Shown here piece by piece: positions 1,255-12,930 of a stretch of DNA of 64,000 nucleotides. The notes under the pieces were generated by a model. It did no database searches and was not told the DNA's origin. It saw only the letters and a program-made list of their open reading frames with translations. This stretch comes from Hyphomicrobiales bacterium (GTDB lineage Bacteria > Pseudomonadota > Alphaproteobacteria > Rhizobiales > Xanthobacteraceae). The translations under genes and the position numbers were made by a program. Within the stretch, counting starts at the first letter, position 1. The number at the start of each line of letters is the position of its first letter. The stretch lies in the NCBI GenBank assembly GCA_017305715.1, contig JAFKKG010000009.1, positions 405,648-469,647 on the forward strand. Direction: 5' to 3'.

Positions 1255-2004
1255 ATGACCAAGAGACTTGAAGGCAAAGTGGCGCTGGTAACCGGCGCAT
1301 CCAAGGGCATCGGCGCCGAGATCGCCGCCCGCCTGGCCGCGGAAGGGGCGTCGGTCGCCGTCAACTACAGCGCCAGCAAGGAGGCCGCCGACCGCGTGGT
1401 GGCGGCGATCAAGGGCAAGGGCGGCAAGGCCGTCGCCGTCCATGGCAATCTGAGCGACGGCAACGGCGCAAAAAAGGTGGTGGCGGAAACCGTCAAGGCG
1501 TTCGGCGCGATCGACGTCCTCGTCAACAATGCCGGCATCTATGAGTTTGCGCCGCTGGACGGCATCACGCCCGAGCACTTCCACAAGCATTTCGATCTCA
1601 ACGTGCTCGGGCTGCTGCTGGTGTCGCAGGAAGCCGCGCGGCATTTCAATGACGGCGGCAGCATCATCAACATCAGTTCGGGGGTGTCGACGATCGCGCC
1701 GCCGAATTCCGCGGTCTACACCGCGACCAAGGCGTCGGTCGACGCCATCTCCGCGGTGCTTTCGAAGGAACTGGCGCCGCGCAAGATCCGCGTCAATACC
1801 GTCAACCCCGGCATGATCGCCACCGAAGGCGTGGTTTCGGCCGGCCTCGCCGAAGGCGATATGCGCAACTGGATCGAGTCCGCCACGCCGCTCGGGCGGA
1901 TTGGCAAGGTCGAGGAAATCGCGGCGGCGGTCGCCTTCTTCGCGTCAAGCGACGCGTCCTATATCACCGGCGAAACGTTGCACGTGACGGGCGGCCTGCA
2001 CTGA
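1255..2004 (+). CDS. Short-chain dehydrogenase/reductase (SDR)
   Basis: A 249-aa classical SDR. The cofactor motif TGASKGIG is at residues 13-20, NNAG at 91-94, the catalytic serine region ISS at 140-142, and the YxxxK pair at Tyr155/Lys159. The C-terminal ITGETLHVTGG is typical of FabG-like or glucose-dehydrogenase-like members. It should be a cytoplasmic NAD(P)-dependent oxidoreductase; the substrate cannot be read from sequence. Divergence from an ArsR-type repressor across a perfect operator suggests that it is induced by the repressor's ligand rather than serving core fatty-acid synthesis. Confidence 0.9.
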   Translation: MTKRLEGKVALVTGASKGIGAEIAARLAAEGASVAVNYSASKEAADRVVAAIKGKGGKAVAVHGNLSDGNGAKKVVAETVKAFGAIDVLVNNAGIYEFAPLDGITPEHFHKHFDLNVLGLLLVSQEAARHFNDGGSIINISSGVSTIAPPNSAVYTATKASVDAISAVLSKELAPRKIRVNTVNPGMIATEGVVSAGLAEGDMRNWIESATPLGRIGKVEEIAAAVAFFASSDASYITGETLHVTGGLH

Positions 2005-2017
2005 CCGGCGCGCCGTC

Positions 2018-2053
2018 GTACCGGCGGATTGGCGAAGCGTCATCCGCCGGTAC
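2018..2053 (+). terminator. Strong hairpin after the SDR gene
   Basis: GTACCGGCGGAT (2018-2029) pairs perfectly with ATCCGCCGGTAC (2042-2053) around a 12-nt loop, 14 bp after the SDR stop. There is no T-run, so it may be a Rho-independent-like stem or an RNA-stabilising end. Related GGCGGAT...ATCCGCC stems recur in this window, for example at 30555-30586. Confidence 0.5.
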
Positions 2054-2122
2054 CTGCTTTCCAAATCGGCGGCCGCGCCTTGCGCCGACCGACTGGGCTG
2101 GTCCAACTTGCCGCCGCAAGAT

Positions 2123-2136
2123 GTGAGTTAGATCAC
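2123..2136. promoter_or_regulatory. GTGA-N6-TCAC palindrome (CRP/FNR-like)
   Basis: The sequence is GTGAGTTAGATCAC, preceded by T and followed by GG. It lies 75 bp upstream of the double-glycine peptide gene at 2212. It matches the half-site geometry of CRP/FNR-family operators. Similar sites precede three other small-protein genes in this window (2844, 3235, 12539). Confidence 0.5.
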
Positions 2137-2211
2137 GGAAAGGCACAAGTTGCGCTTCCATCGTTCATGACGTGACGGATCATCCGCTCACTGGAACCAG
2201 AGGAGAAGCGC

Positions 2212-2412
2212 ATGCCTGCGATGAGCAACAGCGAAGCACGTACAACCCAAGACGGCGTGGACGTTCTGGCGGACACCGATCTTGATCCCGTAGCTGGCGG
2301 AGTTTGCCGCGAGCCGGACAAGGTCATCGTGATTGATTTGCCGAACCTCGGGATTGCGTTCACTTACTCGAATTGCGGCGGCACCTTCAACATGTGGAAC
2401 TTCAACAGATAG
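2212..2412 (+). CDS. Small peptide with double-glycine leader (bacteriocin-like), 66 aa
   Basis: ATG 2212 follows AGGAGAAGCGC; a second ATG lies three codons on. Residues 19-30 read LADTDLDPVAGG. This matches the consensus of double-glycine leaders (Leu -12, acidic -8, Leu -7, Val -4, Gly-Gly -2/-1), which are cut and exported by C39-peptidase ABC transporters. The predicted 36-residue core contains Cys32 and Cys55, a hydrophobic stretch (VIVIDLPNLGIAF) and a Gly/Asn/aromatic tail (NCGGTFNMWNFNR). No transporter or modification enzyme is nearby. It converges on a second double-glycine peptide gene (2576-2764). A role as antimicrobial or signalling peptide is inference; the leader motif is direct. 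Confidence 0.7.
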   Translation: MPAMSNSEARTTQDGVDVLADTDLDPVAGGVCREPDKVIVIDLPNLGIAFTYSNCGGTFNMWNFNR

Positions 2413-2575
2413 GGTTAGGGTGAGACCGGGTTACACCGACGGCGCGCGGATTGAATCGCACGCCGCCTTGCTCCGGAAAGGGCGGACCACGCTTCGTGAT
2501 CCGCCCTGCCCGCTCGCATAGGTCAGCGATGTTCGTCGGGTTGACGAGGCCGCTTTCAGCCCCGACGGCCCACCC

Positions 2576-2764
2576 CTAGGCGATCATCGTCCGCCCGCCG
2601 CCAAAATTGATATTCGCCCAGGGCAAATAAAACTGTTTGACCCAGTTCAGGTACTGGAGTTCGCCTTCGATCGCCCGCCGTCCGCCGCTCACCTGATCCA
2701 GTTCGACAACGGTCAATTCGACCGTGTTCTGCCGGCTGCCGGGTTCATCGTTTCGCGTGTTCAT
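2576..2764 (-). CDS. Second double-glycine leader peptide, 62 aa
   Basis: ATG at 2764 is preceded by GGAGCAGAAC, a good ribosome binding site, so a longer in-frame start near 2989 is rejected. Residues 17-28 read LTVVELDQVSGG, an exact fit to the double-glycine consensus (Leu -12, Glu -8, Leu -7, Val -4, Gly -2, Gly -1). The predicted core of 34 residues begins RRAIEGELQYLNWVKQFYLP, is rich in aromatic residues, lacks cysteine and ends with a GGG-containing tail. It converges with the gene at 2212, and the cores share no obvious similarity. An upstream GTGATTTGAATCAC dyad lies 80 bp before the start. Function unknown. Confidence 0.7.
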   Translation of the reverse strand: MNTRNDEPGSRQNTVELTVVELDQVSGGRRAIEGELQYLNWVKQFYLPWANINFGGGRTMIA

Positions 2765-2843
2765 GTTCTGCTCCGTTGCACAAGAAAGAAGGATGATCCT
2801 TCGATCCATCCGGTCAGGGTGAGACCACAGCGATTCAATTTCC

Positions 2844-2857
2844 GTGATTTGAATCAC
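2844..2857. promoter_or_regulatory. GTGA-N6-TCAC palindrome upstream of peptide gene
   Basis: GTGATTTGAATCAC, flanked by C and G to give 7-bp arms (CGTGATT / AATCACG) around two central bases. It lies 80 bp upstream of the start at 2764 on the minus strand. It is almost identical to GTGATCTGAATCAC at 12539. Confidence 0.55.
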
Positions 2858-2903
2858 GAGCGCAGCGCCGGCGGACCGGTCGGCTCCGATCCGCCCCGCC
2901 GCT

Positions 2904-3104
2904 CTACTGACCGGGGCTGTTCGGAGCCTTATCCAGGAGGTCGTAGATTTCGTCGGGCGTTTCCCGAACCGTGACGGCTGCCTTGTCACTCAGGAACTGG
3001 ATGGTCGTCGCGTTGGCGGTCCGTTCGAAATACGCGACCGCGCTCATATTGACATGGATGACGCCAGTAGAATTTTCGCGGTTGAGCTCAAGAAAAGTAA
3101 GCAT
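2904..3104 (-). CDS. Small beta-rich protein, 66 aa, FlbD/LytTR-like in appearance
   Basis: The start at 3104 follows AAAGGAGCCCGAA, a near-ideal Shine-Dalgarno, so the long upstream extension is rejected. The product begins MLTFLELNRENSTGVIHVNM. The pattern of a residue needing to be 'seen' in context, then a strand, then VTVRETPDEIYDLL, is like the small flagellar protein FlbD or the end of a LytTR domain. Similarity is by eye only. It lies 139 bp upstream of the second double-glycine peptide gene on the same strand and has its own upstream palindrome at 3235-3248. It could be a small regulator of that peptide, but this is inference. Confidence 0.6.
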   Translation of the reverse strand: MLTFLELNRENSTGVIHVNMSAVAYFERTANATTIQFLSDKAAVTVRETPDEIYDLLDKAPNSPGQ

Positions 3105-3234
3105 TTCGGGCTCCTTTAATGCCGCCGCGGCGTGGCGCCGGGCAGCGTGTGCCGTACAATCCCCCACCCATACTTGAATTCGGCGCGCTGCGGTTGAAAT
3201 TATCGGCGGATGCCAAGCAAGTGCGGCCGCTTCA

Positions 3235-3248
3235 GTGAGCCAGCTCAC
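3235..3248. promoter_or_regulatory. GTGA-N6-TCAC palindrome
   Basis: GTGAGCCAGCTCAC has perfect 6-bp arms around CA. It lies 131 bp upstream of the small gene starting at 3104 on the minus strand, and it also sits 129 bp before csaA on the plus strand, so the target is not settled. Confidence 0.45.
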
Positions 3249-3376
3249 GTAGGTGCGCGCGATCTCCTCGGCTATTCGTCGAACAGGAACCGTGGCCGCT
3301 CTCACGCGACAAGGCGCTTGCTTATGCTGCGCCGCTCCCTCATGTAGCCGACATCAGCACCAACCATGAGCCATCC

Positions 3377-4430: not shown

Positions 4431-4616
4431 AACCCCAGGGAGCAGTTTCGCGAAGGGTTTCTGCTGCCGAGCGTTCACCGAGAAATCACGCAGTATGGGT
4501 CCCCCGATGCGCAATAGCGCATCTGAGCGTTCGCCGGGACGACGAGAGATCGGCGCCTGCCGCCGCGAGATCGCGGAAATGTGGACAATCGCCGTCCCAC
4601 CAACTAATTCCCCTCC

Positions 4617-5504
4617 ATGACCGTCATTTCCATCCAGTCCCAGGTCGCCTTCGGCCATGTCGGCAACTCGGCTGCGGTGTTTGCGATGCAGCGGCACGGC
4701 ATCGACGTGATTGCGGTGCCGACCACGCTGCTGAGCAACCGGCCGGGCTATCCGACCATCCGCGGCCGGGTGCTGGAGGCGCAACTGGTCGCTGATCTCC
4801 TGCTCGGGGTCGAGGAGCGCGGCGCGGTCGATACGTGCCGGATGATATTGTCCGGCTATCTCGGGTCGGCCGAGACCGCCGCCGTGGTCGCGGACTTCGT
4901 GGCGCGCGCGCGGGCCCGCAATCCCGCGCTGCGCTATGCCTGCGATCCCGTGCTCGGCGATCGCGACCGCGGCCTGTTCGTCAAGCCGGACATCCCGCCG
5001 CTGGTGCGCGACCGGCTCTGCACCCTCGCCGACATCATCACCCCCAATCATTTCGAGTTCGACTGGCTGTGCGGCGCAGGCGCCACGACGTCCGGTCAGA
5101 TGCTGGATGCGGCGCGCACATTGATGGCGCGCGGCCCATCGACGGTCGTCATCACGTCGGCCGAACTCGATGACACGCCGGACGGCGAGATCGAGACGCT
5201 GGCGATCGAAGCGGCAAACGCCTGGCGCGTGCGCACGCCGAAACTTCCCATCAGCCCGAACGGCACCGGCGACCTGTTCGCCGCGCTGTTCACCGCCGCT
5301 CGCATGCAGGACCAGAATACGCCGGAAGCGCTGGGCCATGCCGCCTCCGCCATCTACGCCGTCCTGGCGCGCACCGCCGCGCGGGGCACCGAGGAGATGC
5401 GGATCGTCGAGAGCGCGGAGGAACTCGTGCATCCGAAGCGGCGGTTCGAGGCGGTTGCGATAGACTCCCTCTCCCCGCACTTCGCGGGGAGAGGGTTGGG
5501 GTGA
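4617..5504 (+). CDS. pdxY: Pyridoxal kinase PdxY
   Basis: A 295-aa ribokinase-fold kinase that phosphorylates pyridoxal to PLP in the B6 salvage pathway. The start [20 protein letters not shown] is diagnostic (the GHVGNSA loop). The LSNRPGYP segment, [15 protein letters not shown] and the catalytic-site stretch [12 protein letters not shown] (GTGD anion hole with Asp) are all present. The last ~11 codons ([12 protein letters not shown]) and the stop codon are encoded by a hairpin repeat starting at 5467, so the natural C-terminus has probably been replaced. hisC, the next gene, encodes a PLP enzyme, but there is no sign of an operon. Confidence 0.95.
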
Positions 5505-5700: not shown

Positions 5701-6765
5701 ATGAGCCGTTACTGGAGCCGCCTGACGCACGACCTGAAGCCCTATGTGCCGGGCGAACAGCCCCGCATCGCGGATTTGGTCAAGCTCAACACCAATGAGA
5801 GCCCTTTTGCGCCCTCGCCGCGCGCGCTGGAAGCGATCCGCGCCGAGGCCGCCGACAGCTTGCGGCTCTATCCGGACCCGCAGGCGACAGCGCTGCGGGC
5901 GGCGCTCGCCACCTATCACAAGGTGCAGCCCGAACAGGTGTTCGTCGGCAACGGCTCTGACGAGGTGCTGGCCCATGCGTTCGTGGCCCTGCTCAAGCAC
6001 GACTCGCCGCTGCTGTTCCCCGACATCACCTACAGCTTCTATCCCGTCTATTGCGGCCTGTTCGGCATCGCCCATCAGGAGGTGCCGCTCGATGAGGCGA
6101 TGCGGATCCGCATTGCCGATTATCGGCGGCCGGCCGGCGCGATCATCGTGCCCAATCCGAATGCGCCCACCGGCGTGGCGCTGTCGCGGGCCGAGATCGC
6201 GGCCCTGCTGGCGCAGCATCCCGACATACCCGTCGTGATCGACGAGGCCTATGTCGATTTCGGCGCCGAGACGTCCATTCCGCTGGTCGCCTCGCATCCG
6301 AACCTGCTGGTGGTGCAGACCATGTCGAAGTCGCGGGCGCTTGCGGGCCTGCGCGTCGGCTATGCGATCGGCGATGCCGGCCTGATCGAGGCGCTGACGC
6401 GCGTGAAGGACAGTTTCAACTCCTACCCGCTCGGCCGGCCCGCCCAGGCCGGCGCCATCGCGGCGCTGGAGGACGAGGCCTGGTTCCAGCAGAGCCGCGC
6501 GCGGGTGATCGAGGGCCGGCAGCGGCTCACGAGCGGCCTGGGTCAGCTCGGCTTCGAGGTGCTGCCGTCGGCCGCCAACTTCGTGTTCGCGCGCCATCCG
6601 GCACATCAGGGCGCCGCCCTGGCTGCCGCCTTGCGCCAGCGCGCGGTGATCGTCCGCCATTTTGCCGCGCCCCGGACCTCGGACTATCTGCGCATCACGG
6701 TCGGCACGGACGGGCAAACCGGGCGGTTGCTGTCTGCGCTGTCGGAAATCCTGGGTCGTGCGTAA
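5701..6765 (+). CDS. hisC: Histidinol-phosphate aminotransferase
   Basis: A 354-aa fold-type I PLP aminotransferase that transaminates imidazole-acetol phosphate to histidinol phosphate in histidine synthesis. The start is set at [20 protein letters not shown]. Key stretches are [24 protein letters not shown] (cofactor phosphate region), [17 protein letters not shown] (PLP ring aspartate), and [18 protein letters not shown] with the PLP lysine. ATG 5701 is preferred over the in-frame extension to 5569 because that would run back through the palindromic repeat. It may be one of several HisC paralogs and could also act on aromatic substrates. Confidence 0.93.
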
Positions 6766-11977: not shown

Positions 11978-12262
11978 GCGCCGATGCTACCTCAAACAAG
12001 GCAGCGGGAACACCCGCTGTGCGAGCCCTTGCCCCTGTCAAAAAATCGTCATGGCGCGCGAGGAACCGCCCTGCCGTAGCTGGAAGCGCGAAGGCGGAAG
12101 CGCCAGAACATGGTCCGCGTCACGGCTGAACCCGCGCTTCCGAACGAAACAAGCGCGAACCGATAATCCGCTCGCCACGCCGGAGAACACGATGACGCGC
12201 GATCGCGAAGCAAGCGCGCAAGAGCCTCCTCCGAACAACTCGAACTCGTGGCGGGAGGATCC

Positions 12263-12517
12263 GTGATCCAGGAGATGATGGCAAACCTCAAGCTGATGGG
12301 CGAAATCCTCTCGAACGTCAGCAAGACGCGCTCCGAGATCAGCATGACGTTCGCGCGCCACGCGCGGGCGCAATTGATTTGCCGGCGGACGAATCAGAAT
12401 CGCGCGCCAAGAGAAAAGGCCGGCGGGCGTTACGCCACCGGCCTTCTCTTGCAGCTGCCGGCCCAGGTCCGGTTCCGCCGCGATTCCATGACGGAAATCC
12501 TGGGTGAGCTTGGTTAA
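12263..12517 (+). CDS. Small hypothetical protein, probably frameshifted or coupled to a leader ORF
   Basis: GTG 12263 has GGGAGGATCC upstream. The frame reads VIQEMMANLKLMGEILSNVS, then RSEISMTFARHARAQL. A 24-codon frame (12192-12266; ATG after GGAGAACACG) ends NSNSWREDP and its TGA overlaps this GTG by a 4-base GTGA. Joined in register, the text becomes ...WREDP-VIQEMMANLKL, which reads like one protein. So either the pair is translationally coupled, or one gene has suffered a one-base frameshift. The C-terminal part runs through a terminator-like stem (12412-12449), which suggests it is not native. I do not recognise the family. Confidence 0.45.
   Translation: MIQEMMANLKLMGEILSNVSKTRSEISMTFARHARAQLICRRTNQNRAPREKAGGRYATGLLLQLPAQVRFRRDSMTEILGELG
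12412..12449 (+). terminator. Terminator-like hairpin
   Basis: AGAAAAGGCCGG (12412-12423) pairs with CCGGCCTTCTCT (12438-12449) with one mismatch, and an inner GGCG-TTA-CGCC stem extends it. A weak pyrimidine run follows. It lies inside the end of the preceding small reading frame. Confidence 0.5.
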
Positions 12518-12538: not shown

Positions 12539-12552
12539 GTGATCTGAATCAC
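12539..12552. promoter_or_regulatory. GTGA-N6-TCAC palindrome upstream of DUF6894-like gene
   Basis: GTGATCTGAATCAC, followed by GG. It lies 144 bp upstream of ATG 12697. It differs by one base from the site at 2844-2857 upstream of a double-glycine peptide gene. Confidence 0.5.
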
Positions 12553-12696: not shown

Positions 12697-12930
12697 ATGA
12701 CCCAGGTCTATTTCCACTGCTCCAACTCCCGCGAAGTCCGCGTCGATCAGTTCGGCGCGGTGGTGAGCAGCCTCGCCGAGGCGCGCGACCGCGCTGCCTG
12801 CGTGGTGCGATCGCTCATCATGGAACAAAGCACGGAAGACTGGCGCGACTGGGTCGTCCATGTCAGCGACGATTTCGATGAGGAGATCTTTGAAGTCTCC
12901 TTCTCATCCGTCCTCGGAAAGCCGAACTGA
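12697..12930 (+). CDS. DUF6894-type small protein, 77 aa
   Basis: Starts MTQVYFHCSNSREVRVDQFG after GAAGGAGACCAAC; an upstream GTG at 12682 is less likely. The pattern 'YFHCS...R..D..G', then 'SLAEARDRAACVVRSL', then 'DWRDWVVHVSDDFDEEIFEVSF' fits the DUF6894 family, small cytoplasmic proteins frequent in Bradyrhizobium and related soil bacteria. No enzymatic motif is known. The gene is followed after 7 bp by another tiny gene, so the two form an operon behind the palindrome at 12539. Confidence 0.78.
   Translation: MTQVYFHCSNSREVRVDQFGAVVSSLAEARDRAACVVRSLIMEQSTEDWRDWVVHVSDDFDEEIFEVSFSSVLGKPN

Follow-up and report, generated by a model that had tools for sequence, protein, structure and literature searches.

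Two double-glycine leader peptides as likely members of a scattered, CRP-box-marked peptide set with an NHLM-type exporter in trans

Two short genes, P1 and P2, lie close together in the DNA of a Hyphomicrobiales bacterium, within a stretch of 64,000 nucleotides that was analysed as a whole and is here called the window. It is likely, in our judgement, that both encode precursors of secreted peptides, that they form part of a dispersed group of genes marked by a CRP-type box, and that their products are exported in trans by an NHLM exporter encoded elsewhere in the genome. A preliminary description of this DNA had taken the two for a convergent pair, forming an orphan exported-peptide module. 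The peptides and their leaders hold up well, while the pair and the orphan module do not, since P1 and P2, each with its own promoter-like box, are individual genes among 24 with GG leaders that are dispersed over the genome.

Each of the two genes begins with an ATG that has GGAG 6 nt upstream, and each carries an LxxxELxxVxGG-type leader ahead of a short core (Table 1). P1 is a peptide of 66 residues, with a leader that runs through Gly30 and ends in LADTDLDPVAGG, followed by a core of 36 residues with two cysteines. P2 has 62 residues; its leader runs through Gly28 and ends in LTVVELDQVSGG, and its core of 34 residues is Cys-free. The in-register leaders, the good Shine-Dalgarno (SD) sequences and the make-up of the two cores are thus as first described. 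P1 has no match to a Pfam or NCBIfam family at E<=1. The Pfam and NCBIfam matches of P2 are all below cut-off, the best in NCBIfam being to VP1, a peptide pheromone (17.3 bits at E 0.004, cut-off 85), with a further one to a CTB bacteriocin model (12.5 bits, cut-off 32). No curated precursor model of the NHLP or Nif11 type was matched above cut-off by either peptide.

Table 1. Features of the P1 and P2 region, and proteins of the exporter locus on contig C40
Feature	Position in window	Strand	Basis or remark
CRP-type palindrome GTGAGTTAGATCAC	2123..2136	+	89 nt before P1 start
-10-like CATCGT (P1)	2159..2164	+	positions 37-42 from box start
P1 precursor peptide	2212..2412	+	ORF, translation, SD, leader motif
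P2 precursor peptide	2576..2764	-	ORF, SD, relatives, selection
-10-like CACCCT (P2)	2816..2821	-	positions 37-42 from box start
CRP-type palindrome GTGATTCAAATCAC	2844..2857	-	93 nt before P2 start
P3 ORF, 66 aa, no GG leader	2904..3104	-	weak FlbD-like match
CRP-type palindrome GTGAGCTGGCTCAC	3235..3248	-	144 nt before P3 start
HlyD			TIGR03794, 292.6 bits, cut-off 156.2
Peptidase-ABC			TIGR03796, 1060.2 bits, cut-off 853.3
Second ABC			TIGR03797, 860.9 bits, cut-off 709.4

The surroundings of the two genes were also inspected. By eye, neither an immunity-like gene nor a modification enzyme could be made out next to P1 or P2; proteins that confer immunity are small and easily overlooked. The neighbouring ORF P3, whose match to an FlbD-like model stays under the cut-off (13.9 bits, cut-off 24.7), was considered as an immunity or partner gene. 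This was rejected, as no relative of P3 is present in the flanking DNA retrieved for the P2 relatives (seven loci, L038-L044, with only 5.1 kb for L042). A scan of positions 2000-3300 gave no match to a sigma-70 promoter and two terminator-like sites, against a shuffle mean of 1.2.

When the genome (7.45 Mb, 51 contigs) was searched for the strict leader pattern, 18 matches were obtained, against one for the reversed pattern. Short ORFs hold 13 of them. The other five fall in long reading frames, one of which we take to be RadA-like, and were dropped as chance. A further 12 peptides came from reading the ORFs linked to the box described below and from scanning fetched stretches, which brings the set to 24 GG-leader peptide genes and one AG peptide, itself among the 12 additions, on 12 contigs. 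One member (L034) has a form of 118 aa whose long leader is, by our reading, nitrile-hydratase-like, and in another (L037) the SD is not clear. The cores are diverse: 49 of them, 25 from this genome and 24 chosen from relatives, fall into 30 groups (phmmer, E 0.05), and in this comparison nine of the 25 own cores have no partner. The P1 core groups weakly with that of another own peptide (L025) as well as with ones from other species; the P2 core groups with a single core from one other genome (G085).

Some further traces of such peptides were noted. A third GG peptide near P1 and P2 (L026, C25:405175-405357) lies about 290 bp to the left of the window and has no box; its C-terminal NDPxQxFQxIxxQLT-like stretch is found again in L029 and G085. 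Three own GG peptides (L032, L033 and L069) have the core stretch NPQPLPP in common. Within the window, positions 12192-12400 hold a frame-broken remnant of a GG-leader peptide, in which the leader end EQLELVAGG and the core are out of frame with the ATG at 12192. An apparent degenerate box is seen near 12110-12125.

The exporter had been expected elsewhere in the genome, and this expectation was borne out. Only one match to the Pfam C39 domain (PF03412) was found in the genome at E<=0.001. It lies on another contig (C40), and so none was detected within the window. At this locus a complete NHLM exporter is encoded, with HlyD, peptidase-ABC and second ABC proteins all above their NCBIfam cut-offs (Table 1). 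The peptidase-ABC aligns over nearly its full length with the bacteriocin-transporter chains 8vp3 and 4ry2, both solved structures, and with ComA. The exporter locus has a GG peptide of its own (L011:4516-4680, leader LNDEQLSIVNGG), which lies 128 nt past the point where the second ABC gene ends and is accompanied by two exact boxes. Relatives of this peptide, again with two exact boxes, are present in the exporter stretches of two other genomes (G085 and G012), and in this way leader, box and exporter are tied together. Twelve exporter stretches were taken from other genomes: a GG-like short ORF is present in 11 of them, and in 10 of the 12 one has an exact box; the exceptions are L094, without a GG-like ORF by the criteria used, and L091, with one-mismatch boxes only. 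No box, even at one mismatch, is present within 400 nt of the exporter's HlyD gene, and therefore co-regulation of peptides and exporter gets no support there.

Other features of the exporter loci are recorded here for completeness. An ORF near the exporter (L011:2386-4239) has three matches, all below cut-off: to a patatin-like phospholipase (71 bits, cut-off 272), to the 'bacteriocin-type transport-associated protein' TIGR03896 (41.4 bits, cut-off 161) and to CRP (37.8 bits, cut-off 266). Repeated GG peptides, some of them in tandem, are found next to the exporter genes in G002, G106 and G114 (stretches L085, L087 and L092), and their core (IVAQANSATQVGVAQGG...) resembles, to our eye, functional amyloid repeats. 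A search of the genome for LanM-type enzymes gave no match, with all 14 controls equally silent.

The conserved palindrome upstream of P2 was first revealed by aligning the P2 loci. It is exact in five of six homologous loci (L038-L041 and L043), and a 4-nt gap breaks the copy in L042. The exact form GTGA-N6-TCAC occurs four times in the window, before P1, P2 and P3 and at 12539. The last of these (12539-12552) lies 158 nt upstream of the ATG that opens a small ORF lacking a GG leader (12697-12930). Among the 13 own peptides found by their leader alone, nine have an exact box, lying 86 to 119 nt upstream of the start, in a scan of 400 nt; the density of exact boxes in the window is 0.025 per 400 nt. 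Three of the remaining four have a one-mismatch box, for which about 0.19 per 400 nt is expected by chance, and L026 has none. Between -75 and -135, an exact box was present in none of 55 mechanically picked control ORFs (>=100 aa, SD, ATG) from the window and the exporter locus, and in 1 of 153 from other loci. The figure of 9/13 is the unbiased one for this genome: a count of 15/20 is circular, as it includes peptides first found through the box, and its script-chosen rows contain a chance frame (L030) and a wrong start (L034) and omit L037 and others.

In the loci of other species, an exact box precedes 34 of 53 leader-like ORFs and is missing at 19; simple letter shuffles gave a mean of 0.02 and a shifted window 1/53. 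The box played no part in fetching these loci, which were reached by way of P1 or P2 relatives or C39 matches; the 53 ORFs include homologues and paralogues. Once 48 sequences, own and other and some of them homologous, were aligned on the box, a second signal was seen at positions 37-42, with a pyrimidine at 37, A38 in 39/48, T39 in 24/48 and T42 in 25/48. The element of P2 fits the pyrimidine-A and the final T of this signal, not the middle T. In class II CRP promoters the site is centred at -41.5. The second signal, about 22 nt downstream of the box, falls where a -10 element would be expected for a box centred near -41, which is the arrangement in promoters of this class. The CRP site of class II CRP-dependent promoters overlaps the -35 element, according to the available part of PMC5449483.

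The box is not confined to the GG peptides. The combination of box, SD and ATG has 34 matches in the genome, against none for the control, and the ORFs behind all 34 were read: 14 are GG peptides, among them the one at the exporter locus, one is the AG peptide and 19 are others. Several of these 19 look Sec-exported by eye. The box thus marks a wider, secretion-rich regulon of CRP type and not the GG peptides alone. The Sec-exported-looking proteins behind a box and SD are L053, L056, L057, L058, L064, L070 and L071. As to the regulator, 23 matches to HTH_Crp_2 were found in the search, 13 of them above cut-off. A candidate recognition helix was obtained by script for four of the 13, and two (L098 and L099) show R-E-S, in which we take the arginine-glutamate to be CRP-like. 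For Sinorhizobium Clr, sites with the core GTNNCNNNNGNNAC are given in the accessible portion of PMC10127613. Position 5 of the box is C in 13/48 and T in 32/48, so that most boxes here misfit this core; they are closer to the CRP consensus than to the Clr core as given in that portion.

Across the genus, C39 matches are present in 164 of 190 genomes, and the leader pattern has 1235 matches against 249 for the control, a count that contains chance matches (five of 18 in the own genome). GG motifs are commoner in those of the 190 genomes that have a high-scoring C39 match, kinship being ignored. Genomes with a match at E<=2e-35 (55) have on average 9.6 leader-pattern matches, against 5.2 in the 135 others (Mann-Whitney p 1.4e-12, kinship ignored), and the control pattern stands at 1.3 in both; this split was picked after the table had been seen, and it reflects a score class of the C39 domain, not orthology to the present exporter. 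With a looser split at E<=1e-28 (83 genomes) the means are 8.2 and 5.2 (p 6e-8, kinship again ignored). Among the 20 genomes with the highest leader-pattern counts, 18 have a C39 match at E<=2e-35.

The two peptides differ in their distribution. Relatives of P2 with 76-84% identity occur in four of 194 other genomes of the genus. They are also found in six named Bradyrhizobium loci, including that of B. lablabi CCBAU 23086, with a 46% relative in a seventh. For P1, only weak relatives were seen, in two of the 194, one of them across a stop codon. No P1 match was found in the genomes with a P2 relative, so the pair is not kept together in these genomes; as each gene also has its own box, a functional P1-P2 pair was rejected. 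The P2 core is under purifying selection. Pooled pairwise dN/dS for P2 is 0.28 over six of the seven close sequences (L041 was excluded for an indel). The leader by itself gives 0.44, the core 0.18 and the last 26 codons 0.08. The ratio was computed for P2 and not for P1, as P1 is nearly unique. The neighbourhood of P2 is partly kept, since 4616-5461 and 5701-5894 match L042, 3376-3717 matches L039 and 1878-2013 matches L040. The GG peptides around P2 vary between species.

Could the two frames be chance ORFs with coincidental GG motifs? Five of the 18 strict matches do fall in long reading frames, and P1 has few relatives, as this reading would expect. It is nevertheless highly improbable, given the 18 matches against one in the control, the SD sequences, the exact box in 9/13 and the dN/dS of 0.28 in P2, and it was rejected on the leader and box counts. 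That the peptides are RiPP precursors, with cores modified before export by an enzyme encoded elsewhere, seems unlikely to us. NHLM exporters often serve modified peptides, and the long, by our reading nitrile-hydratase-like leader of the 118-aa form would agree with such a role; against it stands the fact that no modification enzyme was recognised by eye beside P1 or P2.

Two other readings concern what the peptides do outside the cell, and inter-bacterial competition and a communal function (signal, biofilm) appear about equal to us, each being possible without being probable. As competition peptides akin to class II microcins, P1 and P2 would inhibit related bacteria, with their exporter in trans. 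The GG leaders together with a C39 exporter with HlyD agree with this, and so do the patchy distribution of both peptides, the lack of a relative, within the 49 cores compared, for nine of the 25 own ones, and the sub-cut-off resemblance of P2 to VP1 and CTB. It is harder to reconcile with the purifying selection on the P2 core, the lack of a P3 relative in the fetched P2 loci and the failure to recognise, by eye, an immunity-like gene beside P1 or P2. This last observation would suit communal or signalling peptides, as would the conserved P2 core and the promoter anatomy common to scattered genes. The EbfG biofilm proteins of the cyanobacterium Synechococcus offer a precedent, as far as the consulted excerpt of PMC4997328 goes. 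A repertoire that differs by species (P1 weakly in 2/194, P2 in 4/194) is, on the other hand, unusual for a shared signal.

Whichever role applies, export of P1 and P2 in trans as members of a box-marked set is the reading we prefer, and a sequence of events can be proposed for it. A CRP-family activator would bind GTGA-N6-TCAC about 41 nt upstream of the transcription start, as the spacing suggests, and would switch on most of the at least 24 single-gene GG-leader precursors together. The LxxxELxxVxGG leader would then be recognised by the C39 domain of the NHLM-type peptidase-ABC, which would cut the precursor after GG. The core of 36 or 34 residues would exit through the transporter, the HlyD adaptor and an outer-membrane channel. 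Judging from the genome, one exporter located elsewhere probably releases the whole peptide set. A broader proposal is offered more tentatively, as plausible though short of probable: Bradyrhizobium may have a genome-wide regulon of scattered, unmodified secreted peptides, in which a cAMP-responsive CRP-type activator serves dozens of single-gene class II promoters simultaneously and one NHLM exporter, acting in trans, trims and exports all the products. The cores would turn over fast from species to species while leader and promoter stay fixed, as an exchangeable 'secretion cassette'.

Bradyrhizobium is a major genus of soil bacteria and legume symbionts. If the proposed arrangement is true, small secreted peptides could be catalogued simply by looking for leader and promoter box together. 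Deleting the one exporter would then shut off the entire set, so that its part in competition or symbiosis could be put to a direct test. Genome-wide surveys of GG leaders in Gram-negatives reportedly exist, and the NHLM and Nif11 families are said to have been defined in an earlier paper. No description of such a peptide set in Bradyrhizobium was found in the open-access literature, among the matches listed and in the excerpts they offer.

Among the known systems, the class II microcins of Enterobacterales are short GG-leader peptides with an exporter made of a C39-ABC protein and HlyD. The present peptides share both traits; unlike the microcins, they have no adjacent exporter and no recognised immunity gene, and many unrelated cores occur in one genome. 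NHLM export of NHLP bacteriocins is resembled in the three exporter proteins above NCBIfam cut-offs and in candidate substrates with GG leaders. It differs in two respects: a long leader of the nitrile-hydratase or Nif11 kind is missing from P1 and P2, for which no family was matched over cut-off, and the candidate substrates here are scattered single genes with promoter boxes of their own. For the C39-exported bacteriocins of cyanobacteria, precursors encoded far from the gene clusters are mentioned in the available part of PMC3140520, which is a point of likeness. In the cyanobacterial case modification enzymes such as LanM are involved, whereas in the present genome no such enzyme was recognised and the dispersed genes have a CRP-type box in common.

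EbfG1-4 of Synechococcus elongatus are small GG-motif proteins, efficient secretion of which needs the C39-peptidase transporter PteB, in so far as the excerpt of PMC4997328 describes them. The system studied here is similar in combining several small GG-motif proteins with a C39-peptidase transporter; in contrast to EbfG1-4, it has 24 GG genes, many core groups and a CRP-type box. As for the promoters, the regulator is known here only as candidates, in which they differ from the class II CRP promoters described in the accessible text of PMC5449483; they resemble these in having a TGTGA-N6-TCACA-like site placed to overlap the -35 element, with a -10-like element downstream.
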